In this document: positions 12,831-29,409 of the stretch, in pieces
Position numbering within the stretch: the first letter of the stretch is position 1
How the letters are laid out: the number at the start of each line of letters is the position of its first letter
Origin: a bacterium
Lineage (GTDB): Bacteria; Desulfobacterota; Deferrisomatia; Deferrisomatales; Deferrisomataceae
DNA: 35,838 nucleotides
Assembly: GCA_027021615.1 (NCBI GenBank)
Contig: JALUTY010000064.1
Coordinates: 1-35,838 of the forward strand
Reading direction: 5' to 3'
Notes under the pieces: generated by a model
Database searches by the model: none
What the model saw: only the letters and a program-made list of their open reading frames with translations
What the model was told of the DNA's origin: nothing
Translations under genes and position numbers: made by a program

Positions 12831-12854
12831 GATGGCTCCTGGGTATGCGTGGAG

Positions 12855-12955
12855 TCAGGACGTTGGGACGCGAAGCGTCGTCACCCGTCACGCGTCACTG
12901 CCTTTCCCACCCGTCACCGCCCTTGCCCCCATCTGTGTGGATCTGTGGCTAAAGA
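12855..12955. repeat. Short octamer and CGTCAC heptamer repeats upstream of pyrH
   Basis: Two to three octamers (CAGGACGT, TGGGACGC, GAAGCGTC) are followed by CGTCACC, CGTCACG, CGTCACT in phase 7 at about 12879-12899. A further period-10 pair (ATCTGTGTGG, ATCTGTGGCT) lies at 12930-12950. This is the 5' region of pyrH. Confidence 0.55.
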
Positions 12956-12988
12956 GGTTCGGACGCCGGGCGGGGCGGCCCAAACACA

Positions 12989-13026
12989 CGATCGGGGGAG
13001 CGGGGAGGGCCCCGCTCCCCCGATCG
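12989..13026 (-). terminator. Strong hairpin, probable terminator after tsf
   Basis: A perfect 17-bp stem (arms 12989-13005 and 13010-13026) with a 4-base loop, 15 bases past the tsf stop. In the tsf reading direction it is followed by TGTGTTTGG, a weak U-rich tail. The stem is nearly all G-C. It would separate rpsB/tsf transcripts from the pyrH operon. Confidence 0.75.
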
Positions 13027-13041
13027 GTTCGCAGGAACGCG

Positions 13042-13692
13042 TCAGGCGCCGGCCTGGGCGGCCACCTCTTCGGCGAAGTTGTCCTTGCGTTTCTCCAGCC
13101 CCTCGCCGAGCTGGAACCGCACGAACCGGCGAATCCGAACATTCTCTCCAAGCTCCGCGATCTTCTGCTTCAGCAGGTCCCCCACCGTGACATCGGGGTC
13201 CTTCACGAAAGGCTGGTCCAGCAGGCAGTTCTCCTTGAGAAACTTCTGTAGCCGGCCTTCCACCATCTTCTCGATCACGTGGGGGGGCTTCCCGCTCTCG
13301 GCCGCCTGCTCGCTGAGAATCCGACGCTCGTTCTCCACTTCGTCGGCGGGGGCACTCTCCCGGTCGAGCCACCTGGGGTTGGTGGCGGCCACGTGCATGG
13401 CCACGTCGTGCACGAACTGCTTGAAGGCGTCGGTGCGGGCCACGAAATCGGTCTCGCAGTTCACCTCCACCAGCACGCCGATCCGGCCGCCCGCATGGAT
13501 GTACGAGTGAACCAGTCCCTCGGCTGCCACCCGACCCGCCTTCTTGGCGGCGTCCGCGAGCCCCTTCTTCCGAAGGTACTCCACGGCCTTGTCCATGTCA
13601 CCCCCGGTCTCCTGGAGGGCCCTTTTGCAGTCCATCATACCCGCTCCAGTTCGCTCCCGGAGCTCCTTCACCGCCTGCGCCGTAATCGCCAT
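13042..13692 (-). CDS. tsf: Elongation factor Ts
   Basis: Nucleotide exchange factor for EF-Tu. 216 residues, the shorter bacterial form with one complete core repeat. [18 protein letters not shown] marks the N-terminal domain, CETDFVAR the core, and [16 protein letters not shown] the C-terminal part. The ATG at 13692 gives the canonical MAITAQ start with GGGAG nine bases upstream; an in-frame start eight codons earlier is less likely. Normally cotranscribed with rpsB, but here 286 bases with a terminator-like hairpin and a large palindrome lie in between. Confidence 0.97.
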
Positions 13693-13724
13693 GGTTCTTA
13701 CTCCCTGTTCGGTCATTTCGGCTA

Positions 13725-13835
13725 GAAAGCTAGAATGCTAGGAGGCTGGAAACCCCTTTGTCTCTAGTTTCCAGTCTCCAGTATCTGGTCTCTGCCCGGC
13801 CGGAGGCAGGCTCCTTGCCCCGCCCTCCGAGGTGA
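13725..13835. repeat. Octamer, CTAG/CCAG heptamer and GGCCGGAGGCAGG repeat pieces
   Basis: The order is GGCTAGAA, AGCTAGAA, TGCTAGGA, GGCTGGAA (phase 8), then a short linker. Next are CTAGTTT, CCAGTCT, CCAGTAT, CTGGTCT (phase 7) at about 13763-13790. Last is GGCCGGAGGCAGG followed by CTTGCCCCGCC, which matches the end of the long dispersed repeat at 15.6 and 27.8 kb. The block lies directly upstream of tsf. Confidence 0.6.
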
Positions 13836-13854
13836 CGCGCCTATCTTGTCGCCG

Positions 13855-13930
13855 TGTTACTGATTCCAACGAAAGTATTGCCAGGCCCCCACCCCGTCCC
13901 CTGGCAATACGTTTGAAGATCTTAGTAACA
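13855..13930. promoter_or_regulatory. Large interrupted palindrome between rpsB and tsf
   Basis: Inner arms GTATTGCCAGG (13875-13885) and CCTGGCAATAC (13900-13910) are perfect. They enclose a 14-base GC-rich loop. Outer arms TGTTACT (13855-13861) and AGTAACA (13924-13930) are also perfect and equally spaced (13 bases each side), giving a 76-bp structure. It is clearly less GC-rich than its surroundings. It follows the rpsB terminator and precedes tsf, so it could be a tsf leader structure, a protein site or a mobile-element remnant. Function is unknown. Confidence 0.7.
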
Positions 13931-13940
13931 GGATTTCGAC

Positions 13941-13972
13941 AAACGGGAGCCGGCCCCGGGGGCCGGCTCCCG
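13941..13972 (-). terminator. Rho-independent terminator-like hairpin after rpsB
   Basis: Fourteen-bp arms (13944-13957 and 13959-13972, CGGGAGCCGGCCCC type) start 6 bases past the rpsB stop. In the reading direction they are followed by TTTGTCG. A strong GC stem with only a short T run; probable terminator or attenuator between rpsB and tsf. Confidence 0.7.
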
Positions 13973-13978
13973 TGCGGG

Positions 13979-14776
13979 TCAGTCCACGTCGATCTCGACC
14001 TCTTCCACCTCGAGGTACTCGTCCGACTGAGCCGGCTCGGCCTTCTCGTCACCCCCGACCGCCGCCGCCATCTCGGCCTCCACGTACTCCTGGCGCTGGG
14101 CCTTGCCCTCGATCACCGCGTCGGCGATCCGCGAGGTGAACAGCTTGATCGACCGCAGGGCGTCGTCGTTGCCGGGGATCGGGTAGCCGATCAGGTCCGG
14201 GTCGCAGTTGGTGTCGAGGATGGCAATGATCGGGATGCCCAGCCGGTTCGCCTCGCGCACCGCGATGTCCTCACGGGCGGGGTCCACGATGAACACCACG
14301 GAAGGCAGGCTCTTCATCTCCTTGATCCCCCCAAGGCTCCGCTCGAGCTTGGCGGCCTCGCGCCGGATCCGCAGGCCCTCCTTCTTCGTCATGAGCTCCA
14401 CGGTTCCGTCGCCGAGCATCCGCTCCATCTCCTTCAACCGCTCGATGCTGCGCCGGATAGTCTGGAAGTTGGTCAGGGTGCCGCCCAGCCAACGGTGGGT
14501 CACGTAGAACTCCCCGCATCGGTTGGCCTCTTCGCGCACGATGTCCACGGCCTGGCGCTTTGTCCCCACGAACAGGAACCGGCCGCCCTGGGCCGCGGTC
14601 TCCCGGGCGAACGCGTACGCCCGGCGGAACAGGTGCACCGTCTGACTCAGGTCAATGATATGGATCCCGTTGCGTTCGGTGAAGATGAACCGTTTCATCT
14701 TCGGATTCCACCGGTGCGTCTGGTGACCGAAGTGGACCCCGGCCTCCAGCATGTCGCGCATCGTCACGGTTGCCAT
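13979..14776 (-). CDS. rpsB: 30S ribosomal protein S2
   Basis: 265 residues. Canonical S2 motifs: [78 protein letters not shown] and DTNCDP. The ATG at 14776 has AGGAG nine bases upstream and gives the normal start; the open frame continues upstream without a better site. The C-terminus is an acidic tail of about 30 residues. Head of the rpsB-tsf-pyrH-frr block. Confidence 0.97.
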
Positions 14777-14889
14777 GTTGCCCTTCTCCTTTTTCTCGTG
14801 GTTGGCCTCCGCCCCCTTCGCCCCGCCTTCCCACCCGATCCGTTCGGGCACCACCGGCGGTCCAGGGGCGTGCGGAATGGAAGCGCATA

Positions 14890-14918
14890 CGGGTACCACA
14901 GCCACGCCCCGGTTTCAA
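14890..14918 (-). promoter_or_regulatory. Candidate rpsB promoter
   Basis: On the minus strand TTGAAA (14913-14918) is followed after 17 bases by TACCCG (14890-14895), about 115 bases upstream of rpsB. The -35 is good; the -10 is poor. On the opposite strand a perfect TTGACA (14927-14932) points toward the P-II gene but lacks a recognisable -10. Confidence 0.3.
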
Positions 14919-15366: not shown

Positions 15367-15739
15367 GGGCCGGGGGTCGGTGCTCGTTCGTCGTGGGTCG
15401 TGTGTGATACCGAGTTGCATTCAGAACTATTGGCCCCCTGCCCGAAGGGGCAAGGGGCCTGTCGGAGAGCCGGGCGCGGCTCCCTAGCCCGCCGCGCAGC
15501 GCCTCTGACGCTCGGACCGCGAAAGGGTTCGGATTCCACTGAGCTGCCATGAAACCAGCTCTTCGGTCCTGTGCCTGCGCGGCGAATCTCAAGCCTGGCT
15601 TCGCGCCCGGCCGGAGGCAGGTCCCTTGCCCCGCCCCCGGATCCGTATGCGATGGATGGCAACTTGGTATGAAAGGCCGTGGGGCGCAGGTCGGGGTTGA
15701 TCCGTGAAACGAACGGCTGTCGGACCTCCCCGCCTCGGC
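15367..15739. other. Intergenic region carrying a long dispersed repeat
   Basis: A gap of 373 bases between the convergent P-II and OmpA-like genes. 15375-15400 has GTCGT-rich heptamer-like sequence, 15445-15645 carries the long dispersed repeat listed separately, and 15650-15739 shows nothing recognisable. No terminator with a T run is visible for either gene. Confidence 0.6.
15445..15645. repeat. Long dispersed repeat, copy 1
   Basis: Shares order and sequence with 27633-27840. Both have a hairpin GAGCCG-N4-CGGCTC (here 15467-15482), then CGCCGCGCAGCGCCTC, CCATGAAACCA or TCATGAAACCA, then TGCGCGGCGAATCTCAA, GGCTTCGC and GGCCGG(A)AGCAGG, ending in TGCCCCGCC. The hairpin loop differs (GGCG against CGTG) while the stem is kept. 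Neither strand gives a better-conserved reading frame, so it appears non-coding. Confidence 0.75.
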
Positions 15740-16816
15740 TCACTCGCCCTCGACCTCTGCAGCCTTTTCGCCCTGGGGCTGGGGCGGTGAGAACAACGGG
15801 GCCTCCAGGGGCACCAGCTTGATCTCGATCCGACGGTTCCGGGCCCGACCCTCGGGGGTGTTGTTGGAGGCCACCGGCCGGTACGGGCCGAACCCCACGG
15901 CCGAGAGGCGCTCGGGCTGCACCCCCACCTCGTCTTGAAGAAACCGCACCACGCTCGTGGCCCGGGCCGTGGAGAGCTCCCAGTTGGACGGGAACCGCTC
16001 CGCCAGAGCCCCGGCGATGGGCACGTTGTCGGTGTGCCCTTCGATCACGATGGCCTTGTCGGTCCGGGCCTTGAGCATCTCGCCCAGCCGCCGCAGGACC
16101 TCCCGGCCCTCGGGCTTGATGCGCGCGCTTCCCGAGTCGAACAGGATCTCGTCGAGGACCTTGACCGAGAGCCTGCCTTTGAGCTGCTCGATCACCACCC
16201 GGCCCGCCTCCACCTCCTTCTCCATGCCCTTGAGCAGGCCCTCGTAGGTCTGTGACACCTCGTCGAGCTTCTCCCGCTTCTCCTGCTCCGCCCGGCGACG
16301 CTCCGCCTCCACCAGGTCCAGCCGGGCCTTCAGGTCCGCCATCCCGGTCCGGCACTCCTCCAAGCGGGCCTGCAGATCCATCCGCTCGACCCGGGCGGCC
16401 CGCTGCTGGGCCTCCAGCTTCTCGCTCAGGGCCTGGGCCTGGATCTCGGCCTCCCGCCGGGCCCGGCCGCACACGTCCAGGTCGGCCTCCCGGCCCCTGG
16501 CCCGGTCCTGCCACTCGGCCGCCCCCGCCACGGCCTCCGCCAGCTGGGCCTTCAGGGTCTTGCCCTCTTCCGCGAGCTTCGCCGACCGGTCCTTGCAGGC
16601 CTGGAGATCCCTCCCCAGGGCCGCTACCCGGGCCCTCTCGGCCGCCAGCTCCTGCTCGGCCGAGCCGAGCCGAGCCTTCAGGGTCTGGGCCTGGTCCACG
16701 GCCCTGAGGTACTCGTCCCTCCCCACCCCGCACCCGGCCAGGACCAGCACCCCCAGGGCCACGGCCACGCGGATCCCGCCGCGACGTGCCGTCGTCGTCC
16801 CGTCTTCCCTCGTCAC
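15740..16816 (-). CDS. OmpA/MotB-domain lipoprotein with coiled coil
   Basis: 358 residues. A lipobox VLVLAGC puts the acylated cysteine at about residue 29, so it is a lipoprotein, probably in the outer membrane. Residues ~35-220 are charged heptad-rich coiled coil. The C-terminal ~120 residues are an OmpA peptidoglycan-binding domain (LFDSGSARIKPEG, EGHTDNVPI, NWELSTARATSVVRFL, NRRIEIKL). I start at GTG 16816, which overlaps the kinase stop as GTGA and has GGAAGAG upstream; the ATG ten codons earlier gives an odd extra N-terminus. Its coupling to a sensor kinase is unusual and suggests a periplasmic partner or envelope-anchoring role. Confidence 0.85.
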   Translation of the reverse strand: MTREDGTTTARRGGIRVAVALGVLVLAGCGVGRDEYLRAVDQAQTLKARLGSAEQELAAERARVAALGRDLQACKDRSAKLAEEGKTLKAQLAEAVAGAAEWQDRARGREADLDVCGRARREAEIQAQALSEKLEAQQRAARVERMDLQARLEECRTGMADLKARLDLVEAERRRAEQEKREKLDEVSQTYEGLLKGMEKEVEAGRVVIEQLKGRLSVKVLDEILFDSGSARIKPEGREVLRRLGEMLKARTDKAIVIEGHTDNVPIAGALAERFPSNWELSTARATSVVRFLQDEVGVQPERLSAVGFGPYRPVASNNTPEGRARNRRIEIKLVPLEAPLFSPPQPQGEKAAEVEGE

Positions 16817-18312
16817 GTCTCTTCCTTTTGGGTACGGGGAAGCCATACGTAGAACTCCGACCCGGCACCCACCTGGCTCTCCACGTGGATCCGGCCCCCG
16901 TGGGCCTCCACGATCTTCCGGCAGATGGGCAGGCCCAGGCCCGTACCCTGGTTCTTCGTGGTGTAGAACGGTTTGAAGATCTCCGAGAGCTTTTCCGGCG
17001 GGATCCCCGGCCCTTCGTCCCGGACCACCACCTCAACCCAGTCCGGGGCCACGGGGGTTTCTTCATCTTCCAGGGTGGGCCGGGCGCTCGTCCTCACCTC
17101 GATCCGGCCACGGCCGCCCACGGCGTGCCGAGCGTTCAGGATGAGGTTCAGGAGCACCTGCTGGATCTGCTGGGGGTCCATGGTGATCTCAGGCATCTCG
17201 GGGTCGAGAGCCAGATCCACCTGATCCCGGGTGCCTCCCTCTTCGCGCTCCACAAAGAACAGCGACTCCTCCACCACGTCGTTTGGGTTGACCCGCTTCC
17301 AGTTGGGCACCGACTCTCGGGCAAAGCTCAGCAGGTCCCGGATCGTCTTGTCCAGGCGTTCGATCAGCTTGAGCATCTCCTGGACCACGGGCATCCGGGG
17401 ATCGTCCGGCTCGAACCCCTGGGCCAGCACCTGGGTCGCACCGGCCAGCCCGGCCAGGGGGTTCTTGATCTCGTGGGCCACGCTGGCCGCCATCTCGCCG
17501 ATCGACGCCAGACGTTCCGCCCGCATCATCTGCTCTCGGTGGAGCCGTTCCACCTCACGGCTTGTCTCATCCAGCCGGGCGATCATCGAGTTGAAGCTCC
17601 GGGCGAGCCGGCCCAGCTCGTCCCTGCCCCGCACCCGGGTGCGCACCTCCAGGTTCCCCCGCTCCACCTCTTTCATGGTCTCGGCCAGCTCCCGCACCGG
17701 CCGGTTCACCATGCGGTAGAGCAGGAAGCTGATGGCCCCGGTGACCAGGAGCACCGTGACCACGGTGGAGGCGACCATGAACCGGGCGTTCTGTCGGATA
17801 TGCTCCCCGGTCTTAGCCATGCTGAGGCACACCTCTAACACCCCCACGATCTCCTTGTTGGGGTCATGGCAAGTGTGACACCGGGGCTCGTTGTACATCA
17901 CCTCGACCATGCAGAAGCTGCGATGCCCCCGCTCCTCGCTGCGGAACGGCTTGGACCGGTCGGGGCTGGTGAACACGTTGTAGACGAGCTCGTCCACCTC
18001 CTTGCCGATCTCCCCCGGCTGGGCCGAATGCATAATGATACCGTCCGCGTTGAAGATCCGGATCGTCTCGATGTCCTGGAACTGGCCCATCATCCGGATA
18101 ACCTTCATCACGTCCTTCTGGCACCGACCCTCCATGTCGATGCGAATGATGTTGGTCAACGTCTTGGAGAGAATCTGCGCCTGGCTCTTGGTGTTCTCCA
18201 CGGCCTGCCGGTCCTGAGCCATCAGGTTAAACCAGGTGGCCCCGCCTAGAACCAACCCCAGCACCGCGACGATGGCCAGGTTGACCTTGAAACTCAAGGA
18301 GGTTCGAAACAC
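16813..18312 (-). CDS. Membrane sensor histidine kinase with periplasmic c-type heme motif
   Basis: 499 residues. TM1 at ~10-30, a periplasmic domain of ~145 residues containing CHTCH (145-149), TM2 at ~178-200, then HAMP. HisKA has the phosphoacceptor His280 in SVAHEIKNPLAG; the HATPase domain shows the LLNLILNARHA N-box, VRDEGPGIP, FYTTK and GTGLGLPI. The CXXCH motif with a preceding sensor fold (MHSAQPGEIG) resembles heme-binding DUF3365/Tll0287-type sensors, so it probably carries covalent heme matured by ResB/CcsA and senses redox state or a small gas. GTG start; weak ribosome site; the upstream ferredoxin gene ends 21 bases before. No response regulator is in the window. Confidence 0.9.
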   Translation of the reverse strand: MFRTSLSFKVNLAIVAVLGLVLGGATWFNLMAQDRQAVENTKSQAQILSKTLTNIIRIDMEGRCQKDVMKVIRMMGQFQDIETIRIFNADGIIMHSAQPGEIGKEVDELVYNVFTSPDRSKPFRSEERGHRSFCMVEVMYNEPRCHTCHDPNKEIVGVLEVCLSMAKTGEHIRQNARFMVASTVVTVLLVTGAISFLLYRMVNRPVRELAETMKEVERGNLEVRTRVRGRDELGRLARSFNSMIARLDETSREVERLHREQMMRAERLASIGEMAASVAHEIKNPLAGLAGATQVLAQGFEPDDPRMPVVQEMLKLIERLDKTIRDLLSFARESVPNWKRVNPNDVVEESLFFVEREEGGTRDQVDLALDPEMPEITMDPQQIQQVLLNLILNARHAVGGRGRIEVRTSARPTLEDEETPVAPDWVEVVVRDEGPGIPPEKLSEIFKPFYTTKNQGTGLGLPICRKIVEAHGGRIHVESQVGAGSEFYVWLPRTQKEET

Positions 18313-18333: not shown

Positions 18334-19176
18334 TCAGGTGAGGACGGAGCCGGGCACGCCCTCCCGCTCGCGGGCGGACTCCCGGCCCAGAACCGTGGTC
18401 ACGGTGAGGGCCTCGCAGTCGGTGCAGTCCAGGCACCGGATGCACTGCCCCGCGTTCGGCTCCTCGTAGGGCCGAACCTCCATGGGGCAGACCTGGTAGC
18501 ACTTGTCGCAGTGGGTGCACAGCTCCGGGTTCCAGCGAAGCCGTACCAGACTCACCCGGTTAAACAGGCTGTAGATGGCTCCGAGGGGGCAGGTGGTCTG
18601 GCAGAACGGGCGTCTCGCCACCACCGAGGACACTACAAAGAAGATGAGGATCGCGACCTTGATCCAGAACAGGTCCCGGATCATGGCTCGCACCTCGGGG
18701 CTGATGGTCACCCAGGGCAGCCCCCCGATCAGGGTGCCCATGGGACACAGCTTCGAGAACCAGTTCTCGGAGGTGATCCAGGGGACCACGAACACCAGCA
18801 TCACCAGGGCCACGAACCGAAACGACCGCAGGTACTTGGGTATCCGGATCTTGATCGAGGGCAGCTTGTAAAGCATCTCCTGGAAGAAGCCGAACGGGCA
18901 CAGGGTGCCGCACGGCATCCGGCCCACCACCGACCCCACCAACCCCAGGAACCCCAGGGTGTAGTATGGGATCGCCCGCACCACCATGAAGTGCTGGAGG
19001 GTCCCGATGGGGCACGAGAAAAACGCCGAAGGGCACGCGTAACAGTTCAGCACCGGCACGCAGAACCCCTTGGCAGCGCCCTGGTACACCGCTTTGGCCC
19101 AGTAGCCCGGCAGGTACCCGTTGACGCCCAGGGACGTGCCGAGCTGAAAGTACCGTCGCGTGCGGATCCTGATCAC
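18334..19176 (-). CDS. NapH/YccM-like membrane ferredoxin
   Basis: 280 residues with four or so hydrophobic segments and a cytoplasmic C-terminal ferredoxin domain. Cys-rich turns NCYACP, PCGTLCPFG, LCPMG and FCQTTCPLG are typical of NapH/NosR/MauN-type electron-transfer membrane proteins. The C-terminus has CTHCDKCYQVCP (a normal [4Fe-4S] site) and CIRCLDCTDC, where the last spacing is CX2C instead of CX3CP. It likely passes electrons between quinol and periplasmic partners. GTG start chosen for AGGAGATCGG just upstream; the longer open frame overlaps the preceding gene. No NapF/G or Nos genes are near, so the partner is probably the local cytochrome. Confidence 0.85.
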   Translation of the reverse strand: MIRIRTRRYFQLGTSLGVNGYLPGYWAKAVYQGAAKGFCVPVLNCYACPSAFFSCPIGTLQHFMVVRAIPYYTLGFLGLVGSVVGRMPCGTLCPFGFFQEMLYKLPSIKIRIPKYLRSFRFVALVMLVFVVPWITSENWFSKLCPMGTLIGGLPWVTISPEVRAMIRDLFWIKVAILIFFVVSSVVARRPFCQTTCPLGAIYSLFNRVSLVRLRWNPELCTHCDKCYQVCPMEVRPYEEPNAGQCIRCLDCTDCEALTVTTVLGRESAREREGVPGSVLT

Positions 19177-19265: not shown

Positions 19266-20387
19266 CTACCCCTCGCCCCGTGCCTTCCAGGCCAGCTCCA
19301 CCGCCTGCCGGAACGCCCCGGCCGCCTCCTCCCACCGGCCCAGGGCCGCGGCCACCTCGCCCTTCTCAGCCAGCACCCTGGGATTGCGGGGATCCAGCTC
19401 CAGGGCCGCGTCCACCGCCCGGGCCGCCTCCTCGGGGCGGCCCAGGGACCGCAAGGCCCGGGCCTTGACCACGAGCGCCGGGGTGTAGGCCGGCTCAATC
19501 TCCAGCGCCTCCTCGGCCGCGGCCAGGGCCTCGTCGTGTTTCCCCCGAGCCTCCAAGACCTCGGCCAGCAGCCCCACGGTCTGGACGTGCCGCGGCTGGA
19601 TCTCCCGGGCCTCGCGCAGCACGTCCTCCGCCTTCTCCAGGTACCGGGGACGCTTTGCCGCCCTTTCCAGATAGATCCGGGTCAGCAGCACCCGGGGAGC
19701 TGCCCACTTCGGGTCGATCTTGGCCGCCCGCTCCAGGTCCCGGACGGCCTTGCGCGCCATGCCCCGGCGGATCAGCACCTGCGCTTTCTGGTAGTGCAGC
19801 GTGGCCTTCTTCGGCGGCACGTAGTCGCGCTTCTTCACCGCGAACCGGGGCGCGGCCTCCTCGTGGATCCCCAGCAGGGCGTCCACCGCATCGCGCAGGT
19901 CCCGCTTGGCCGCGGTGGAGTAGCTGGCCAGGGCGTAGCGCACCGTGCCCGCCTCGTCCAGCAGGGCCAGCGAGGGGGTCGCCACCACCCCGTAGGCGTA
20001 GTAGGTGGCCAGCCCCTCGTCCACCACAACCGGGAACGGAAGATCCTTGGCCCACGCCTCCACCGCCACCCGGGCCTCGCCCTCCAGCTGCTCGTGGTCC
20101 ACGTTGACCGCGATCACATCGAACCCCCGATCCTTTCGCTTCCGGTACAGCGCGGTCAAGTCCTCGAGCAAGGGCTTGCTCCGGGCGCTCCAGGTCGCCC
20201 AGAACACCACGGCCAGGGCCTTGGGACCCACCCGGTCCGACAGGCGCACCTCCCGGCCGTCCAGGGTCTTCAGCGCGAAGTCCGGGGCCTTCTGGCCCAC
20301 CTCCACGTACTTGAACGCGGCCGCTGCCGGCGCCACGGCCAGCAGGACCACCAGGCCCAGCACCGCCCCGAGTCGCTTCCCACCCAT
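19266..20387 (-). CDS. Periplasmic thioredoxin-fold/TPR protein lacking the CXXC site (copy 1)
   Basis: 373 residues: signal peptide 1-24, a TlpA/ResA-like domain (~25-175; GQKAPDFALKTLDG, VVFWATW, VATPSLALLD with the cis-Pro), and about five TPR units to the end. Where TlpA/ResA has WCXXC, this protein has W-S-A-R-S (Ser67, Ser70), so it cannot do thiol-disulfide exchange. It lies between a ResB/CcsA/cytochrome group and a membrane ferredoxin, next to a paralogue of identical layout, so a chaperone or scaffold role in cytochrome maturation is a reasonable guess. ATG with CAGGAG upstream. A composite repeat abuts this ribosome site. Stop lies 89 bases before the ferredoxin gene. Confidence 0.88.
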   Translation of the reverse strand: MGGKRLGAVLGLVVLLAVAPAAAAFKYVEVGQKAPDFALKTLDGREVRLSDRVGPKALAVVFWATWSARSKPLLEDLTALYRKRKDRGFDVIAVNVDHEQLEGEARVAVEAWAKDLPFPVVVDEGLATYYAYGVVATPSLALLDEAGTVRYALASYSTAAKRDLRDAVDALLGIHEEAAPRFAVKKRDYVPPKKATLHYQKAQVLIRRGMARKAVRDLERAAKIDPKWAAPRVLLTRIYLERAAKRPRYLEKAEDVLREAREIQPRHVQTVGLLAEVLEARGKHDEALAAAEEALEIEPAYTPALVVKARALRSLGRPEEAARAVDAALELDPRNPRVLAEKGEVAAALGRWEEAAGAFRQAVELAWKARGEG

Positions 20388-20407
20388 CCGCTCGCGCTCC
20401 TGATCAC

Positions 20408-20556
20408 TTCGGTCGTTGGTCGTCAGTCGTCGGTCTGGGGCCTTCGGCCCGCTGGGAGGCTGGGACGTTAGGACGCTGGGACGCTAGGAGGTTAAAAAAC
20501 CTTCCGGATTCCCACACGTTCTAGTTTCTAGTCTCTAGAGTTTCTAGTCTCTAGCC
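20408..20556. repeat. Composite intergenic repeat element (full copy)
   Basis: Read on plus: four heptamers TTCGGTC, GTTGGTC, GTCAGTC, GTCGGTC (20408-20435); hairpin GGGCCTTCGGCCC (20438-20450); octamers GGCTGGGA, CGTTAGGA, CGCTGGGA, CGCTAGGA (20457-20488); a linker with TTAAAAAACC and GGATTCCCACACGTTCTAG; then TTCTAGT/TCTCTAG heptamers to 20556. On the coding (minus) strand it ends directly at the ribosome binding site of the gene at 19266-20387. The same order recurs at 29410-29550 and, cut by the window edge, from 35723. Confidence 0.85.
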
Positions 20557-20596
20557 CGCAGCGGCCGGATGGGGCTTCCCGGATACCGGGCTCCGC

Positions 20597-21589
20597 CTAC
20601 CGCAGCAGCCTCTCCAAGGCCTTGCGGTAGGCCCCCACTGCCTTCTCGTACTGGCCGGCCCCCTCGTAGATCCGGCCCAGCTCGTAGTAGATCCGCTCCG
20701 GCTTGGGGGTGAGCCGGGCCGCCTCCTCCAGCAGGGCCGCCGCCTCGTCGGTCTGGCCCCGGATCCCCAGCACCCGGGCCAACCCCACCTTTGCCTCGGT
20801 GCTCCGGGGGTTCTGCTCCAGGGCCTTCCGCAGGTGGGCCTCGGCCTCGTCCGCGTTGTCGGGCGAGGCGTCCAGAAGCCACAGACCCAGGAGCTCGTGG
20901 GCCTCACCGAACGTGTTATCCGCCTGCACCGCCTCCCGCGCGGCGGCCAGGGCCTTTTCGGTCATCTTTCGCTTGGCCAGGAGCCTCGCCTTCTGCAGAT
21001 GACGCTCGGCGAGCTTGCGCGCCTCGGGCTTGGCGGGCTCGGCTCCGGCCGGCTCCTCCTCCACCTTCTCGCCCAGGGCCCGGGCCACCAGGCGCCGGAC
21101 CTCGTCCGTGAACCCGGCCGTGTAGCCCCCCACCTCCTCCACGAACACGCCCTCGGGGTCGATCACCCCGGTGCTGGGAACCACCAACACTCCGTAGGCG
21201 CCATACACCTCCTGCCTTTTGTCCAGCGCCACCGGGTACGTGACGCCCAGGCCTTCGGCCCAGGCCTTGGCGTCCCCCTCGTCTGGATTCACCACCACCC
21301 CCACCACGGCCACCCGGTCCCCGAACCTGACCGCCACGTCCGCCAGGGCCTTGGCCGCTTTGGCACTGCGCTCCTGCCCTTGCCGTAGAAACGACAGGAT
21401 CACCGCCTTCCCCCGGTGAGCCGCCAGGGCCACCTCGCCCCCCTCCGCCGTTCTCAAAAAGAACTCCGGGGCTGGCTGCCCCGGCTGTACCTTCCGGAAC
21501 GCCTCGGCCGATTGGGGAAGGGCCCCCAACCCCACCGCGACCGCCAGCACCACGCCAGCGGCCACCCCCTTGTGCCCGCGCGTACCCAT
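20597..21589 (-). CDS. Periplasmic thioredoxin-fold/TPR protein lacking the CXXC site (copy 2)
   Basis: 330 residues, paralogous in layout to the gene that follows it. Signal peptide 1-30, thioredoxin-like domain ~31-180 (GQPAPEFFLRTAEG, VILSFLRQ, VVGVVVNPDEGDAKAWAEGL, VLVVPSTGVIDPEG with cis-Pro), then three or four TPR units. The active-site cysteines are replaced: the aligned region is F-L-R-Q-G-Q-E-R-S, giving Gln72 and Ser75. ATG at 21589 with AGGAGGAGAGG immediately upstream; a start 12 codons earlier is possible but not supported. It follows the multiheme cytochrome gene across a hairpin. Role unknown; a cytochrome-maturation scaffold is a guess. Confidence 0.88.
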   Translation of the reverse strand: MGTRGHKGVAAGVVLAVAVGLGALPQSAEAFRKVQPGQPAPEFFLRTAEGGEVALAAHRGKAVILSFLRQGQERSAKAAKALADVAVRFGDRVAVVGVVVNPDEGDAKAWAEGLGVTYPVALDKRQEVYGAYGVLVVPSTGVIDPEGVFVEEVGGYTAGFTDEVRRLVARALGEKVEEEPAGAEPAKPEARKLAERHLQKARLLAKRKMTEKALAAAREAVQADNTFGEAHELLGLWLLDASPDNADEAEAHLRKALEQNPRSTEAKVGLARVLGIRGQTDEAAALLEEAARLTPKPERIYYELGRIYEGAGQYEKAVGAYRKALERLLR

Positions 21590-21742: not shown

Positions 21743-23023
21743 TCAGTACACCACCGGGTTCTCCCGGTCATACTCCTTGGGCTTGTGACAGCCCACCACG
21801 CATCGGCCTCCGGTGGGGGTCTTCGTGTAGTTGATCGGCAGCTTCCACATCTTGCCGAACGGAACCTCTTTGCGGATGTGCTTCTCCTGGTTGCCGGCGT
21901 GGACTTCGTGGCAGGCCTTGCAACTTCGGCCCTTGGGGTCTTTGTTCACGTGCAGGAAGTGCAGGTTCCGGTCACCGTTACGAAAGTCCGTGAGCTTGGT
22001 GGTGAACTCGTTCAGGGCGATGTCCTTGTTGTGACAGTCGAAGCACAGGGCGTAGTTCTCGGTCTTGTACGGTATGTAGAACTGGGCCGGAAACGGCTTC
22101 TTCAGAATCTTGGCATAGTTCGTCCCGTGGGGATCGTGGCAGGCGTAGCAGTCGTTCTGTTTGACCGGTCCATGGAGGTACTTGGAGTTCTTGATCTTCT
22201 CGGCCAGCGCGGTGTGACAGGTGAAGCACAGCTCCTTGGTCGGCGCCTTGAGCTGACGGGGGTAGTTGGACGAGTGGGGGGTATGACACGCCGTACACGA
22301 CTCCTTCTTCAGAGCAGTGTGCTGGACCACCGCCTCCTCGATCTGCTTCTTCTTCTCCTTGTGGCAACGGTAGCACAGCTCCTTGCCCTCGCCGTAAAGC
22401 ATGTACTTGGCATCGGTGGCGTGGGGATTGTGGCAGTTCGTGCAGTCCTCCTCCACCGGCTTGTGCACGTACTTGCGGGTGAACTCCTCCTTGCGGTCGA
22501 TGTGGCACAGCAGGCACAGCTCCGCACCCTTCTCCTCGGTCAGGTTGGGGTAGGGGGAGGAGTGGGGGTTGTGACAGATGTTGCAGTCCCCGGCCGCAAC
22601 AGGCCCGTGGACGAAGGACTTGTTCGTCTTGTTGTTCTCGTGGCAGCTGAAGCACAGCTCGCTGGTGGTGGGCTTCTTAAGCTGGAGCTCTGCGTCGGAC
22701 TGGTGCGGGTCGTGGCAGGCCACGCAGTCCCCCGTGGCCACCGGCTTATGGACCGTGCGGTTGGCGTCCTTGCGGTCGTGGCAAGCGTAGCACAGCTCCT
22801 TTCCGCCGCCGAAGGCCAGCTTAAAGTCCTGGCCCGACTTGGTGGGATGGTCGGGATTGCCGTCCTCGTGGCACACCACACACTGCCCGGCGCCCACCGG
22901 ACCGTGCACATAGGTCGCCTTGCCCATGTTGGAGTGACACTGGTCGGTGACGCACCCCTCTTGGGCAAGCCCCGTCCCGACCAACAAGAGCACCAAAGCG
23001 GCTGCCGCTGCGAGTAATCTCAT
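21743..23023 (-). CDS. Periplasmic multiheme cytochrome c (about 15 heme sites)
   Basis: 426 residues with a cleaved signal peptide (1-20, TGLAQ). I count 13 CXXCH motifs plus CVTDQCH (CX4CH, residues 24-30) and CVVGCH (CX3CH, near the C-terminus), so up to 15 hemes in ~400 residues. The middle is a tandem array of ~55-60-residue di-heme units. Each has ELC(F/Y)XCH, a charged spacer, H(G/K)PV, then (D/S)CXXCHXPH, the doubled-CXXCH pattern. Such proteins carry electrons across the periplasm or outer membrane in metal- and mineral-reducing bacteria. The ATG at 23023 starts the signal peptide and has GAGGGG upstream. ccsA and resB lie just upstream. The CX4CH and CX3CH sites could be misread or genuine non-standard sites. 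Confidence 0.93.
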   Translation of the reverse strand: MRLLAAAAALVLLLVGTGLAQEGCVTDQCHSNMGKATYVHGPVGAGQCVVCHEDGNPDHPTKSGQDFKLAFGGGKELCYACHDRKDANRTVHKPVATGDCVACHDPHQSDAELQLKKPTTSELCFSCHENNKTNKSFVHGPVAAGDCNICHNPHSSPYPNLTEEKGAELCLLCHIDRKEEFTRKYVHKPVEEDCTNCHNPHATDAKYMLYGEGKELCYRCHKEKKKQIEEAVVQHTALKKESCTACHTPHSSNYPRQLKAPTKELCFTCHTALAEKIKNSKYLHGPVKQNDCYACHDPHGTNYAKILKKPFPAQFYIPYKTENYALCFDCHNKDIALNEFTTKLTDFRNGDRNLHFLHVNKDPKGRSCKACHEVHAGNQEKHIRKEVPFGKMWKLPINYTKTPTGGRCVVGCHKPKEYDRENPVVY

Positions 23024-23108
23024 CGGTCCATCCCCTCTCCCATTGGGAAAAAAATCCTGGCGACCCCGGACGTTCCCCCTTCTCGTCATGGTCTCTCCTC
23101 CCGCGCCG

Positions 23109-23951
23109 TTACCCCGCGTAACTATGAAGGCCCGACAACACGAAATTCACCCCCCAGTACGTGAAGATCACGCACCCGAAACCGATCACCGAGAGCCACG
23201 CCAGCCGCACGCCTCGCCATCCCGCCGTAAACCGGGCATGGAGGTACGCCGCGTACACAAACCATGTGATCAGCGACCACGTCTCCTTGGGATCCCAGCT
23301 CCAGTAGGTGCCCCAAGCATAGTTGGCCCACGCAGCCCCGGTGAGAATCCCCAGGGTCAGCAACGGAAAACCCACGGCCACCGACTTGTAGGCCAGATCG
23401 TCCAGCACCTTTGCCGGGGGCAGAATGCCCGGGGCATCCTTGCCCAGCCGGGCTTCGGTGCGGTGGCGAAACAGGTACATGATGGACACGGCGAACCCCA
23501 CCGCAAACGCGGCGTACCCAAAGAAGCAGGTGACCACATGGGCGGTGAGCCAGTTGGACTGGAGGGCCGGCACCAGGGGTTGAATCTCGGCGGAGATGGC
23601 AGGGTTCAAGGACACCACTGCAATGCCCAGAAAGCCCAGGGGAGCCACGAACGCACCGATCGCCCGATAACCGTAGACGCGTTCGAACACCAGGTAGATC
23701 AACATGATCGACCAGGAGAAGAACACCATGGACTCGTACATGTTGGACAACGGGATGTACCCGTACCCGGCCTGGTGGGACTCGATCCACCGCACTGCGA
23801 TCGCGGCCGTGTTCACGAGCCACCCGGCCAGGGCGAGCCCGGTACCGATCCAGCCGGTCACCTTGGACCGGTGGACCAGGTAGACCACGTACCCAAACGT
23901 GGCCAACAGATAGAGGATCATCGCGATCCCGAACAGTTTATCGTTGATCAT
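23109..23951 (-). CDS. ccsA: Cytochrome c biogenesis protein CcsA (ResC-like)
   Basis: Integral membrane half of the System II cytochrome c synthetase; exports heme and presents it to apocytochromes. 280 residues, about eight helices. The periplasmic WWD signature is seen as AWANYAWGTYWSWDPKE followed by TWSLITWF; it is flanked by conserved histidines (SNWLTAHVV, LHARF, LSGLHSY). It follows resB by 74 bases and precedes the cytochrome by 85, the functional pairing expected. ATG start; the region just upstream contains a strong hairpin. Confidence 0.95.
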   Translation of the reverse strand: MINDKLFGIAMILYLLATFGYVVYLVHRSKVTGWIGTGLALAGWLVNTAAIAVRWIESHQAGYGYIPLSNMYESMVFFSWSIMLIYLVFERVYGYRAIGAFVAPLGFLGIAVVSLNPAISAEIQPLVPALQSNWLTAHVVTCFFGYAAFAVGFAVSIMYLFRHRTEARLGKDAPGILPPAKVLDDLAYKSVAVGFPLLTLGILTGAAWANYAWGTYWSWDPKETWSLITWFVYAAYLHARFTAGWRGVRLAWLSVIGFGCVIFTYWGVNFVLSGLHSYAG

Positions 23952-24025: not shown

Positions 24026-25402
24026 CTACTTTTCAAAAACTTCTTGCGCCTCGGTGCACAAGTCCGCGAACCACCGCTCGAACGCGATCCGGTTGCGGCT
24101 GGCGTTGCCGCCCAGGAACACCTCGACTCCACCCCTGTCGGCCGGTCGGACCCGGGCCCACACCCGTCGGTGACTTAGGAAGAAGGCGATCATGGACCCC
24201 AGGGTGATCAGGATGCACCCGGTCCAGATGATCGGCACCCCGGGGTCCTTGGCCACCTGGAGCCCGGTGTACATCACGGTCTCCACGCCGTCGAGCCGGA
24301 TCACGTACCCGCCCAACTTCCGGTGGTTCCCCTCGGGCGCCTGGAACACCACGATGGATCGCGGATCGCCCTTCGCCGGCTGGAGCATCACCTCCACGGC
24401 CGGGCCCATCCCTTTGAAGTCCCCCGTGAGTCCCCGCAAGGCCAGCCGGTCGCCGTTCTCGAGATCCACGGTCTCCCCTCGGAGCAGCTGACGGCGGTGG
24501 AACAGGATGTTCCGCCGGGGTCCAAACACCGTCAGCCAGGCCGACTGGCCTCCGGCCTGCCCGTAGGACGACTGATAGAAGTAGATCCCCTTGTAGATGA
24601 GCGGGTGGTTGACCTCAATGCGCTTCCTCAACACCTCCCGGCCGTCCTCCAGCACGGTGAGGTCACTGATGTAGTCCCGGGGCCTGCCCGTAGGCCGACC
24701 CTGGCGGTCCGTGTAAAAAGTGACCTCGAAGTCGTCGCACCGCACCTCGAACCCCAAATCCTTCACACCGCCCCCGCGAAGACGTACCTGTCTCACGCTC
24801 TGGCCCTCGGGGATGTTCACGAAGCCCTTGAACCCCCACAGGGCCCCCACCAGGGCGCCGATGCCAAACAGGAAGAGGCTGAAGTGGGTCACGTACACGC
24901 CCATGCGGGTCCACCCGCCCCGGGTGCCCAACAGGTACACGACACCGTCGCGCTCCTCCCGGTACACCCGGCGCAGACGCCGGCGCAGCACCCCTTCGAT
25001 CGCTTCGGCCAAGGTCGCCACGTCGGCGTTTTTCACCCTCTTGGCCCACTTCTCGTGGATCGCCACCGGCTTGCCGTCGAACACCGGGTCTCGGTAGTTC
25101 ATCAGCCGCACGGCGTGGGGCAGGCGTTTTAGAGAGCAGAACGTGATGTTCACGAGGAGCAGCACGAGCAGGAGCTGGAACCACCAGGAGTGGTACATGT
25201 CGTCCAGGCCCAGGATCCGAATGACCCGGGCCACGGTCTCCCCGTACTCGCCAACGTACACCGCGAACTCCCGGTGCTGCTGGATCACGGTGCCGAACAC
25301 ACTCGTCGCTGCCAGGGCGATCAGGACCACCACACTTAGCTTGATCGAGGCGAAGAACTCGAAAAGCCTCTTGCCGAGCCCCTTGTTCGACGGCTCCTTC
25401 AA
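24026..25402 (-). CDS. resB: Cytochrome c biogenesis protein ResB
   Basis: Partner of CcsA in System II. 458 residues: TM helices near the N-terminus (SIKLSVVVLIALAATSVFG), a second at ~75 (WWFQLLLVLLLVNITFCSL), a third before a large periplasmic domain (~180-400), and a final helix (IIWTGCILITLGSMIAFFL). The motifs SIKL...GTVIQQ and VNHPLIYKGIYFYQSSYG are typical of ResB. Start set at TTG 25402 because AAAGGAGA lies just upstream; the open frame before it runs through repeat DNA. First gene of the resB-ccsA-cytochrome cluster. Confidence 0.93.
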   Translation of the reverse strand: MKEPSNKGLGKRLFEFFASIKLSVVVLIALAATSVFGTVIQQHREFAVYVGEYGETVARVIRILGLDDMYHSWWFQLLLVLLLVNITFCSLKRLPHAVRLMNYRDPVFDGKPVAIHEKWAKRVKNADVATLAEAIEGVLRRRLRRVYREERDGVVYLLGTRGGWTRMGVYVTHFSLFLFGIGALVGALWGFKGFVNIPEGQSVRQVRLRGGGVKDLGFEVRCDDFEVTFYTDRQGRPTGRPRDYISDLTVLEDGREVLRKRIEVNHPLIYKGIYFYQSSYGQAGGQSAWLTVFGPRRNILFHRRQLLRGETVDLENGDRLALRGLTGDFKGMGPAVEVMLQPAKGDPRSIVVFQAPEGNHRKLGGYVIRLDGVETVMYTGLQVAKDPGVPIIWTGCILITLGSMIAFFLSHRRVWARVRPADRGGVEVFLGGNASRNRIAFERWFADLCTEAQEVFEK

Positions 25403-25656
25403 CGGGGGTTCTCCTTTCTCGTACCTTGGGCTTTCGGCCCGCGGGAAAGCTAGGAGGCTGGGAGGCCGGAAGGCCAAAAGACTCGTTTATCTCCCGGCAG
25501 TTCGAGCAGGCCTACTGGTCACGGTCGAGGGGCAGGGGGGCTGTTGGAGATCCCTGCGCCGCCGGAGCGGGTCCCTCGCCCCGCCCACCGAGAACTCTCG
25601 GTTCGAACGCAACCCGGCACGACCACCAACAACCCACGGCGGTTGCCCCACGGCCC
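25403..25656. repeat. Repeat-filled 5' region of resB
   Basis: The stretch has a GGGCTTTCGGCCC hairpin (25428-25440), a variant of GGGCCTTCGGCCC. Octamers follow (AAGCTAGG, AGGCTGGG, AGGCCGGA, 25446-25469). A shortened copy of the long dispersed repeat lies at about 25530-25590 (GGGGGCTGTTGGAGA... then CCGCCGGAGCGGGTCC and CTCGCCCCGCCC). No gene is evident. Confidence 0.65.
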
Positions 25657-27447
25657 TCACAGCTCCCGGTGGCACTGCAGACAGCGGCCCGCCTCGCGTC
25701 GGGCGGCGGCCGGGTTGAACCCGAGCTCCACCTCCCGAAACCCCTCCTTGCGAAGCCGACTGGCCAGCTTGGGCATCTCCTCCCGGATCCGCGCCTCCGG
25801 GGTTTCCCGGTGGCCGGGGAAGGGCTGCCGGAGCCTCCGGTCCCTCAGGCGCATCACCGGAAGGGCCTCCCTGGCCAGGTCGGCGTACATGCCCAGGGCG
25901 GCCCGGCGGCCCTGCGCCATGGCCTCCACCGCGGTGGACGGCCCGGACACCGCGTCGCCGCCGGCGTACACCCGCTCCAGGCTGGTCCGCTGGGTTCGCG
26001 GGTCCACCCGGATCCGGCCGTCCCGCTCTCGGCGCAGCCCCTGGAGCGCCGGATCCGAAAGGACCGGCGAGTCCACCGTCTGCCCCAGTGCGGGAACCAC
26101 GGTGTCCGCCGCGATGACCCAGTTTCGATCCTCCACCGGCATCGGCCGGGGCCGGCCCGACTCGTCCGGCGGGCCCAGCTCCATGGTGCGGACCTCCACC
26201 TCCAAACCTTCGGCTCCGTGCCTCACCTCCACCGGGTCGGCCAGGTAGTGGAACCGGACCCCTTCCCGCAGGGCCTCCTCCACCTCCTCGGGCCGGGCCG
26301 GCATCTCGTCCCGTGTGCGCCGGTAGAGCAGGTGCACCTCCTCGGCGCCCAGACGAAGGGCCGTGCGGCACACATCCATGGCCGCGTTGCCCCCGCCCAC
26401 CACCACCACCCGTCGGCCCAGACGGGGCGGGGTCGGCCCCTTGCTGGCCCTGAGCACCTCCTGGAAGTCGGTGCAAAGATCCGCGCCCGGGATCGTCAGC
26501 CGCACCGAACGGGCCGCGCCCACGGCCAGGAACACCCCGTCGTGGTCTCGAAGGAGATCCGCCACGGACTTCCCGCCCGGCCCCACGGGTGCCCCGGTCC
26601 GGAACGCGATGCCCCGACCCCGCAGATCGGCCAGCTCCTCATCCAGGATGTACGGAGGCAGGCGGTAATCGGGAATGGTGGTGGCCAACCGTCCCCCCAG
26701 CACCTCGTCGGCCTCGTAGACCGTGACCGAGGCGCCCAGCACGCTGAGGAAGTAGGCACACGCCAACCCTGCCGGGCCCGATCCCACCACGGCCACCCGC
26801 AGCCCCCCCCCATCCAGGTGGACCACCTTGGACGGGCCGGGCTCGGGGCGACGAGCCCGCACCTGGTCGGCCATGAACCGCTTACAGCCGTTGATCGCGA
26901 CGGGCTCGCCGTCGATCCCACGCACGCATCGGGCCTCGCAGGGATGGGGACAGATACGGCCGATCACCCCCACCAGAGGGAGCTGGGTCCGCGCGAGGGC
27001 GTGGCCCTGATCGGGATCGCCGTCAAGGATGAGCTGAAGATAGTCAGGGATCGGCACACGAGCAGGGCAGGCGTTCTGGCACGGGGGGTGGGGAGGGTTG
27101 GGCCCCCATCGTGCGTCGGCCCACGCCACGGCGAGCACGAACGCGGCGGCTCCCACGAGGAACAGGTGGCCGTAGGAGAAGCCGCTCCAGACCGCTAGAA
27201 CCAGCCCGACGGCCAGGGGGAGCAGGCTCGCGAAGAGCACCCCCGTGGCCCAGCGGCGCTGGTAGATCTGTCCCGCACCGGCCGCCGCCAACGACAACCA
27301 CGCCCCCTTTGGGCGTACCCGGCGTTCCAGCGAGATCTCGTGAAGCAGCCGCTCTCGGCCGCGGAGCTTTCCCGAGCAGGTTCGGCAGCGCAGCGCCTCG
27401 CCCTTCGGCTCGATCCGGCAGAGGCTACAGTCCCAGTATCGTTCCAT
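25657..27447 (-). CDS. GltD-like FAD/NAD(P)H oxidoreductase with N-terminal zinc ribbon and membrane segments
   Basis: 596 residues. Residues 7-24 form a CxxC...CxxC zinc ribbon. Residues ~48-112 hold two or three hydrophobic segments with AGAGQIYQRRWATG, like TM2-type modules. After ~115 comes the glutamate-synthase small-subunit fold: CQNACPARVPIPDYL and GRICPHPCEARCVRG ([4Fe-4S] clusters), VAVVGSGPAGLACAYF (FAD), VVVVGGGNAAMDVCRTA (NAD(P)H) and GDAVSGPSTAVEAMAQGR. The C-terminal RCLQCHREL is the usual Cys pair of this family. It likely moves electrons between NAD(P)H and an Fe-S or quinone partner at the inner membrane. No gltB is nearby, so glutamate synthase function is unlikely. ATG start with a weak ribosome site. 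Confidence 0.88.
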   Translation of the reverse strand: MERYWDCSLCRIEPKGEALRCRTCSGKLRGRERLLHEISLERRVRPKGAWLSLAAAGAGQIYQRRWATGVLFASLLPLAVGLVLAVWSGFSYGHLFLVGAAAFVLAVAWADARWGPNPPHPPCQNACPARVPIPDYLQLILDGDPDQGHALARTQLPLVGVIGRICPHPCEARCVRGIDGEPVAINGCKRFMADQVRARRPEPGPSKVVHLDGGGLRVAVVGSGPAGLACAYFLSVLGASVTVYEADEVLGGRLATTIPDYRLPPYILDEELADLRGRGIAFRTGAPVGPGGKSVADLLRDHDGVFLAVGAARSVRLTIPGADLCTDFQEVLRASKGPTPPRLGRRVVVVGGGNAAMDVCRTALRLGAEEVHLLYRRTRDEMPARPEEVEEALREGVRFHYLADPVEVRHGAEGLEVEVRTMELGPPDESGRPRPMPVEDRNWVIAADTVVPALGQTVDSPVLSDPALQGLRRERDGRIRVDPRTQRTSLERVYAGGDAVSGPSTAVEAMAQGRRAALGMYADLAREALPVMRLRDRRLRQPFPGHRETPEARIREEMPKLASRLRKEGFREVELGFNPAAARREAGRCLQCHREL

Positions 27448-27900
27448 TCCGCCATCGAGGTTCGAGGTGAAAAGGTCGTTTCCTCCCTGCCGCGCGCCAG
27501 GCCTCTTCGGTTCCCCACCGGATCGGAATCAAATCTCCCCCCCTCCCCAGTAACTTCGGTCAACGGTCGACGGTCGTCGGTCGGGGCCTTCGGCCCGCTG
27601 GGCGGCTTCCCCGAACCGCCGCCAAGGCCTCGGGGGGCATGGGGGCTGCTGGAGAGCCGCGTGCGGCTCCTCAGCTCGCCGCGCAGCGCCTCCCACGCTC
27701 GTACCGTGAATCCGTTCGTGCCCCACCGAACGGTCATGAAACCACCGCCCGTGCCCCGTGTCTGCGCGGCGAATCTCAATGCCCGGCTTCGCACGCGGCC
27801 GGAAGCAGGCCCCATGCCCCGCCGCCGGCAATGGCCCCCGGGTCAGGGAACGTTACTTTCCCCGTTGTAGGGCCCTCCAGGGCCGAGGGGGGCTTCCCCC
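27448..27900. other. Repeat-filled gap between folE2 and the GltD-like gene
   Basis: The gap has no gene. From 27555 it has TTCGGTC, AACGGTC, GACGGTC, GTCGGTC heptamers and the GGGCCTTCGGCCC hairpin (27584-27596). It continues directly into the long dispersed repeat (27633-27897), which reaches the folE2 stop codon. 27448-27554 shows nothing recognisable and must contain the promoter of the GltD-like gene if it has one. Confidence 0.65.
27633..27897. repeat. Long dispersed repeat, copy 2 (with 86-bp tail shared with 29.3 kb)
   Basis: Matches 15445-15645 through the hairpin GAGCCG-CGTG-CGGCTC (27654-27669), CGCCGCGCAGCGCCTC, TCATGAAACCA and TGCGCGGCGAATCTCAA. The last 87 bases (27811-27897) match 29317-29402 at about 90% identity, including GCCGCCGGCAATGGCCCCCG and GAACGTTACT. 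Just before the folE2 stop it has a GGCCCT-CC-AGGGCC hairpin that could act as a terminator for folE2. Confidence 0.8.
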
Positions 27901-28671
27901 CTACCACTTCTCCACGTACGCGTACGCGTTGTGGTTATGGATGCTCTCGAAGTTCTCGGCCTCCACCGAGAACCAGGTCACGTTCGGGTCCCGCAGCAGC
28001 GCCTGCGCCACGTCCCGGACAATGTCCTCCACGAACTTGGGATTGTTGTACGCCCTTTCGGTCACGTACTTCTCGTCACTGCGTTTGAGAAGACTGAAAA
28101 CTTCACACGACGCCCGGCTCTCCACCAGGTGGATCAGGTCTTCGAGCCATACGAACTCCCGGAACCGCACGTTCACCGTAACCTGGGAGCGCTGGTTGTG
28201 GGCCCCGCCGGCGCTGATGGCCTTGGAGCAGGGGCACACGCTCGTGACCGGCACGCCCACCTCGGCCACGAGGTCGAACTCGTCCTCCTTCAGTGAGCCC
28301 TTGAGGGCACACGGATAGGCCATCAAGGACGGGGCGCGGCTCACGGGTGCCCGCTTCTCCATGAAGTAGGGGAACCGCAGCTCCAGGTGAGCAGACACCG
28401 CGTCCAACCTCTCCCGGATCGTCTCGAGAATGGGCCGCACGTTGCCCACAGCGATCCCGTGCCGGTGCTCGTTCAGGACCTCGACGAACCGGCTCATGTG
28501 GGTGCCCTTGAAGTGATGGGGCAGCCCTACGTACATGTTCACCGTGGCCACCGTGTGCTGCTCGCCGTGGGTCTTATCGAGCACGGTGATGGGGTAGACG
28601 ATGTCCTTGACCCCCACCTTGTCGATGGCGATCCGGCGGTGGTCCTTGCGGCTCTGAATGTCTTCGAGCAC
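27901..28671 (-). CDS. folE2: GTP cyclohydrolase FolE2 (type IB)
   Basis: Converts GTP to 7,8-dihydroneopterin triphosphate, the entry to folate and queuosine synthesis. 256 residues, usual for the family. SVCPCSKAIS contains the catalytic/metal Cys; GAHNQRSQVTV, SCEVFSLLKRSDEKYVTE and NFESIHNHNAYAY are the other conserved blocks. FolE2 replaces zinc-dependent FolE and often works with other metals. GTG start 4 bases after the queD stop, so the two are an operon. No Zur-like site was seen. Confidence 0.95.
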   Translation of the reverse strand: MLEDIQSRKDHRRIAIDKVGVKDIVYPITVLDKTHGEQHTVATVNMYVGLPHHFKGTHMSRFVEVLNEHRHGIAVGNVRPILETIRERLDAVSAHLELRFPYFMEKRAPVSRAPSLMAYPCALKGSLKEDEFDLVAEVGVPVTSVCPCSKAISAGGAHNQRSQVTVNVRFREFVWLEDLIHLVESRASCEVFSLLKRSDEKYVTERAYNNPKFVEDIVRDVAQALLRDPNVTWFSVEAENFESIHNHNAYAYVEKW

Positions 28672-28675
28672 GGGG

Positions 28676-29047: not shown

Positions 29048-29061
29048 CGCAACTCCTACTT

Positions 29062-29086: not shown

Positions 29087-29088
29087 GG

Positions 29089-29307: not shown

Positions 29308-29316
29308 TTTCTGAAC

Positions 29317-29402: not shown

Positions 29403-29409
29403 ATGGAAC

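Follow-up and report, generated by a model that had tools for sequence, protein, structure and literature searches.

How a polypeptide with 30 heme-binding cysteines is kept unfolded, reduced and ordered until 15 hemes are attached is a puzzle to which the analysed stretch of DNA (35,838 nucleotides; hereafter the window) may offer one answer. Two adjacent genes, Trx1 and Trx2, encode thioredoxin-fold proteins with a tetratricopeptide-type (TPR) tail and without the CXXC site, and they lie beside the gene of a 15-heme cytochrome c. The question is what such proteins do there. The original prediction, drawn from the position beside ResB/CcsA and the cytochrome, was of a non-redox role such as holding apocytochrome, binding heme or bridging complexes.

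The gene pair and its predicted fold

The coordinates, reading frames and site residues predicted for the pair (Ser67/Ser70 in Trx1, Gln72/Ser75 in Trx2) were found to be correct (Table 1). The site reads FWATWSARS in Trx1 (S67 and S70 both AGC) and FLRQGQERS in Trx2 (Q72 CAG, S75 AGT), and no cysteine was present anywhere in either protein. Pfam placed an AhpC-TSA/Redoxin domain first and the TPRs C-terminal in both proteins, with AhpC-TSA values of 2.5e-20 (Trx1) and 6.7e-18 (Trx2) and matches to several TPR families besides. The NCBIfam ResA subfamily model matched at 3.5e-20, below its cut-off. AlphaFold2 models built from three sequences each (mean pLDDT 78.6 and 79.9) showed a thioredoxin fold followed by ten TPR helices in Trx1 and eight in Trx2, and the four site residues were predicted to lie at the N-terminal end of the helix bearing CXXC in ResA. 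Structure alignment of the Trx2 model domain gave a Z of 21.8 with C. tepidum DsbE (rmsd 1.7 over 140 residues) and of about 20-21 with ResA, including its C74A/C77A variants. ResA and DsbE were among the best Foldseek matches of the Trx1 model, and ResA was matched by both proteins in a sequence search of solved structures. Together with a cis-proline at position 138 in each protein, these results bear out the predicted TlpA/ResA fold with cis-Pro and TPR tail. Signal peptides, judged by eye, suggest that both proteins are exported, and the likely mature ends, also judged by eye, begin A-F-[KR], which was repeated in most relatives.

Table 1. Features of the gene pair and the surrounding cluster, in positions of the window.
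Feature	Position	Strand	Remarks
OmpA-family protein	15740..16846	-	last conserved-cluster gene in the order
Sensor histidine kinase	16813..18312	-	one CXXCH in sensor domain
NapH-like membrane ferredoxin	18334..19176	-	start inferred from conserved N-terminus
Trx1	19266..20387	-	373 aa; signal peptide (by eye), Cys-less ResA/TlpA-type thioredoxin domain, five TPRs
Trx1 TPR region	19281..19811	-	residues 193-369, ten helices
Trx1 cis-proline 138	19974..19976	-	Pro in 77/77 Cys-less domains
Trx1 degenerate active site	20178..20189	-	Ser67-Ala-Arg-Ser70; family motif FWAxWSPRS
Trx2	20597..21589	-	330 aa; signal peptide (by eye), Cys-less thioredoxin domain, four TPRs
Trx2 TPR region	20603..21028	-	residues 188-329, eight helices
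Trx2 degenerate active site	21365..21376	-	Gln72-Glu-Arg-Ser75
15-heme cytochrome c, MtrA/DmsE-like	21743..23089	-	likely true start Met23
CcsA, cytochrome c synthase	23109..23951	-	named CcsB in TIGR03144
ResB	24026..25477	-	listed TTG start within dispersed repeat; true start probably further in
GltD-like flavoprotein	25657..27447	-	4Fe-4S domain, hydrophobic N-terminal part; conserved cluster member

The gene cluster

On the minus strand the genes were ordered GltD-like flavoprotein, ResB, CcsA, cytochrome, Trx2, Trx1, NapH-like ferredoxin, histidine kinase and OmpA-family protein, and all or most of this order was shared by relatives at the level of genus, family and order and by more distant families of the phylum. 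Pfam and a count of heme sites confirmed ResB/CcsA and the 15-heme cytochrome as neighbours. The ResB and CcsA genes of System II were present in the cluster both in the window and in relatives of the order. No CXXC thioredoxin (ResA/CcsX) was found in the cluster, where the Cys-less Trx1 and Trx2 were the sole thioredoxin-fold genes; CXXC redoxins were present elsewhere in the genome.

The cluster was flanked by queD/folE2-like genes and by rpsB-tsf-(pyrH)-frr-uppS (10696-14905 and 27901-29128 of the window; named by eye), and both flanks looked conserved, again by eye, in one relative (L060). At five loci of families f25, f30 and f90 (L121, L048, L128, L130 and L049) a gene for a 4- to 5-heme cytochrome lay between Trx2 and Trx1. 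Intergenic copies of a dispersed ~260-bp repeat, a short portion of which consists of tandem GCTAGGAC-like 8-mers, occurred in the window at 27450-27815, 15447-15592, 20406-20524, 25428-25479, 29316-29466 and 35733-35835; the repeat had at least 52 matches at 74-100% identity in the same genome, with many more candidates. Because they lie inside such repeats, neither the start listed for ResB nor an ORF called at 27195-27815 is reliable.

The 15-heme cytochrome

The cytochrome had 13 CXXCH sites, an N-terminal CX4CH as its first site and a C-terminal CX3CH as its last, which gives 15 heme sites, and the two atypical sites were conserved through most of the cytochrome family. It matched the DmsE model TIGR03508 at 5.4e-45, with a score below the DmsE cut-off, and PDB chain 6r2q_A at 3.5e-15. 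That chain, listed under another molecule name, is presumably MtrA of the MtrCAB structure. MtrA/DmsE cytochromes are decaheme proteins, with 10 heme sites against the 15 found here, and no MtrB-type porin was noticed beside the cytochrome in the window. Two relatives of the cytochrome with 23 CXXCH (L209 and L210, about 650-680 aa) were apparently enlarged, with no Trx2 nearby.

According to passages of PMC6976685 and PMC12285233, Wolinella has dedicated System II synthases, NrfI and CcsA1, for the unusual sites CXXCK and CX15CH, and Cys-less Trx-TPR proteins are not mentioned in those passages. The Wolinella loci and the window share an unusual-site cytochrome beside synthase genes and differ in the sites, CX4CH and CX3CH in the window. 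By analogy, the ResB/CcsA pair may serve the window cytochrome with its odd sites. This cytochrome offers a way to test the notion of dedicated System II synthases.

The Cys-less family and the loss of the cysteines

A survey of 297 genomes of the window's own phylum, with paralogue searches, found 77 Cys-less domains, 46 in the Trx1 clade and 31 in the Trx2 clade. None of the 77 had CXXC and all had the cis-Pro, so relatives do not retain the cysteines at these positions. Trx1-clade sites had S/N at the first and S/A at the second position, and the Trx1 orthologues were S..S (S..A in G037); Trx2-clade sites were mostly Q..S, as in the Trx2 orthologues, with K, L, I, V, P, N or S also at the first position. 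The 25 CXXC redoxins at the same loci mostly had almost no C-terminal tail, a few having one. A single scan of genome contigs gave two close loci. The DNA pattern for W-S-P-[RK]-S also fits Cys codons, and its list was therefore read by eye only. The Trx1/Trx2 family is old and conserved.

The Cys-less domains all fell on one side of a single branch (SH-aLRT 90, and 80 without the site columns), and in the tree without the four site columns, a short alignment analysed by a quick method to which 58 Cys-bearing redoxins of many genomes had been added, a single switch between the Cys and Cys-less states sufficed. A single loss before the split of Trx1 and Trx2 is therefore the simplest account, with moderate support (80-90) under which a second loss may have occurred. 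The independent replacement in the two paralogues that had been predicted was set aside on this ground. In the first tree a redoxin with a CPRC site, encoded in the same genome, lay close to the Cys-less group; that SPRS arose from it by a double Cys-to-Ser change would be a guess.

Conservation of the degenerate site and selection on the genes

The best conserved stretch of the Trx1-clade domain was the degenerate site itself (FWATWSPRS), with 3.59 bits per column in the site loop and 3.34 in the cis-Pro loop against 2.17 in the rest. The contrast was narrower in the CXXC redoxins (2.71 in the site loop, 2.01 elsewhere) and also weaker in the Trx2 clade (2.55 and 2.80 in the two loops, 2.08 elsewhere). 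The best conserved site columns were W, F, A, S, R and P, and no conserved His, Cys or Tyr was found at the site in the family alignments. Glu at +6, the position of ResA Glu80, was present in 19/25 CXXC redoxins, in 5/46 Trx1-clade and 0/31 Trx2-clade domains; the residue there was Leu73 in Trx1 and Ala78 in Trx2. With CXXC gone, the +6 Glu gone in most members and the cis-Pro kept, the Cys-less family appears to have lost its catalytic parts and kept its binding parts.

Against congeners, dN/dS was 0.13-0.20 for Trx1 and Trx2, 0.03-0.11 for the cytochrome and 0.015-0.06 for CcsA, values that point clearly to purifying selection on the pair. Pseudogenes or drift as an explanation of Trx1 and Trx2 were ruled out by these ratios and the conserved site.

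Comparison with known systems and proposed role

Trx1 and Trx2 shared with ResA/TlpA/CcmG (DsbE) the thioredoxin subtype, an export signal (by eye in the pair) and adjoining cytochrome c synthase genes, but had neither CXXC nor Glu at the ResA Glu80 position and carried an extra TPR domain. Lacking both CXXC and this Glu, they are predicted not to be thiol-disulfide oxidoreductases.

A thioredoxin domain followed by C-terminal TPRs is also found in the CnoX/YbbN chaperedoxins. E. coli CnoX has an SXXC site and no oxidoreductase activity and acts as a holdase; its clients are passed to cytosolic GroEL/DnaK, and it retains a working Cys away from the site (PMC6282202). Trx1 and Trx2 differ from CnoX in their AhpC-TSA/ResA-type domain, their apparent export and the lack of any Cys, so that the client-binding Cys of the SXXC-form chaperedoxins is absent from both. 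CnoX was not among the structure matches listed for the two models, which has no bearing either way.

PMC3601427 describes the TPR protein CcmI/NrfG as a likely handler of apocytochrome. In CcmI/NrfG/SirG of System I the TPR domain is tied to cytochrome c maturation, as in Trx1 and Trx2, but these proteins have no thioredoxin domain and partner CcmF-type synthases, whereas the neighbours of the pair are ResB/CcsA. The CcmH/CycH TPR model gave weak matches of 7.1e-08 and 3.2e-05 (32.9 and 24.2 bits against a cut-off of 42). A holding role of CcmG beside its thiol chemistry is suspected; Turkarslan et al. reportedly described it in 2008, as cited in PMC3601427. A literature search that covered few subscription papers returned no description of the Cys-less ResA-TPR layout, which is weak evidence of novelty.

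CcmI-type TPRs and the dead-site holdase features of CnoX are combined in Trx1 and Trx2 beside the gene of a large apocytochrome, and for this reason we place first, with somewhat less than even confidence, the reading that Trx1 and Trx2 are periplasmic, redox-inactive holdase or assembly factors for the 15-heme cytochrome. They would bind the cytochrome polypeptide during its synthesis, and perhaps also the cytochrome synthase. In the kept substrate groove (cis-Pro, aromatic strand and helix start) Ser, Asn or Gln would replace the thiols, and a thiol-free groove could hold a chain with many Cys pairs and form no mixed disulfides. The TPR arm would be a second binding surface, the apocytochrome would be handed over to CcsA/ResB, and the work may be divided between Trx1 and Trx2. 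By analogy with System I, a CcmG-like holdase role would be joined to a CcmI-like TPR role. A point against this reading is that the thiol step could be left to CXXC redoxins encoded elsewhere in the genome, in which case the pair may come into play once the hemes are attached rather than while they are being attached.

Linkage of Trx2 to the cytochrome

Linkage was assessed, for each of the 31 Trx2-clade genes of relatives, by locating the closest ORF that encodes at least nine CXXCH. The adjacent gene was a relative of the window cytochrome for 28 of the 31 genes, from 16 families of the phylum, usually directly upstream of Trx2 on the same strand, and all 28 adjoining cytochromes matched the profile of the window cytochrome. 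The remaining three were the second gene of a tandem Trx2 pair (L044), a gene on a contig beginning within the cluster (L046) and one whose cytochrome lies 6.4 kb off (L205). The cytochrome was present in 29/30 genomes with a Trx2 match against 54/297 overall (Fisher p 3e-24, uncorrected for kinship). Several cytochrome relatives of about 40-47% identity had no adjoining Trx2 (e.g. L162 and L164-L170). Trx2 thus implies the cytochrome, and the cytochrome family does not imply Trx2.

ResB/CcsA were not seen at 16 of 29 Trx2 loci, some of them on short contigs. The pair in genomes with no cytochromes, an occurrence that would speak against a cytochrome role, was not encountered: all 26 genomes tested carried ResB genes somewhere. 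Of the non-redox role first proposed, the tie to the cytochrome is well supported by the lack of CXXC in all 77 domains, the selection on the site and the Trx2 linkage; the tie to ResB/CcsA as main partner is weakened by their absence from these loci, and the partner is rather the cytochrome.

Both the missing ResB/CcsA and the cytochrome relatives without Trx2 count against the holdase or assembly reading, since on the latter evidence the pair is not required family-wide. In a second-ranked and less likely explanation, Trx1 and Trx2 are permanent subunits of a mature electron-transfer complex with a dead thioredoxin scaffold, the TPR arms spanning the periplasm to connect the 15-heme cytochrome with the NapH-like ferredoxin of the inner membrane and possibly with the OmpA protein. 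The cytochrome gene adjoins Trx2 also at loci that lack ResB/CcsA, genes of the NapH-like, kinase and small cytochrome types accompany the pair, TPR proteins often act as scaffolds, and the rates of change of the pair are above those of the cytochrome, yet purifying. The small cytochrome gene inside the pair in f25, f30 and f90 also suits such a standing complex. However, a dead scaffold would be unlikely to keep its old active-site loop best conserved, with Ser/Asn at the first Cys position, as in the Trx1 clade.

The kinase of the cluster would allow a further, very improbable reading, namely that the pair are redox-inert signalling parts linking the state of the cytochrome to a heme-bearing histidine kinase. 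The CXXCH kinase is a regular part of the cluster within the order and in families f25 and f30, but Trx2 retains its cytochrome neighbour at loci where the kinase was not seen.

Trx1-clade paralogues

The genome of the window had at least two further Trx1-clade paralogues, and some relatives had several. These paralogues lay away from cytochromes, several per genome, which also speaks against subunits of one complex. One group adjoined hemB (ALAD, 3.4e-152 in L052) and an amino-oxidase-family flavoprotein resembling HemG, and neighbours of this kind were shared by as many as eight of the order's genomes (L052 at G000:C126:50000-68000, L055, L057, L191, L195, L199, L200 and L202), Pfam-checked in L052 only. 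These paralogues hint at heme work. The adjacency to hemB proves nothing, because HemB acts in the cytosol.

A heme-binding or heme-carrying role, with heme passed to CcsA/ResB or to the apocytochrome, would draw on this group and on the position of the window pair beside cytochrome synthase genes. It is improbable, if a little less so than signalling: the site has no conserved His, Cys or Tyr, and in System II the CcsA-type synthase itself carries heme (PMC12285233). The many Trx1-clade paralogues, with one group by hemB, would fit client binding, as in the holdase or assembly reading, better than a subunit of a single complex.

Possible too, with slightly less confidence than the role of the window pair, is that a widespread exported class of Cys-free ResA-TPR proteins are dedicated assembly chaperones for 10-15-heme cytochromes c. 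If so, the holding role of a maturation thioredoxin would have been split from its redox role and fused to a TPR arm, in chaperones that are not among the known components of Systems I and II. In CcmG the suspected holding role and the thiol role lie in one protein, and a thiol-less family would let holding be tested alone; it could also help to produce large cytochromes in laboratory hosts.

Finally, in other genomes of the phylum some redoxin sites (FWAxWUPxC-like) had an in-frame TGA where the first Cys would be encoded, at L117, L118, L119 and L120 (matches in G072, G287, G159 and G035) and in G157, G226, G030, G067 and G181, which suggests selenocysteine redoxins.
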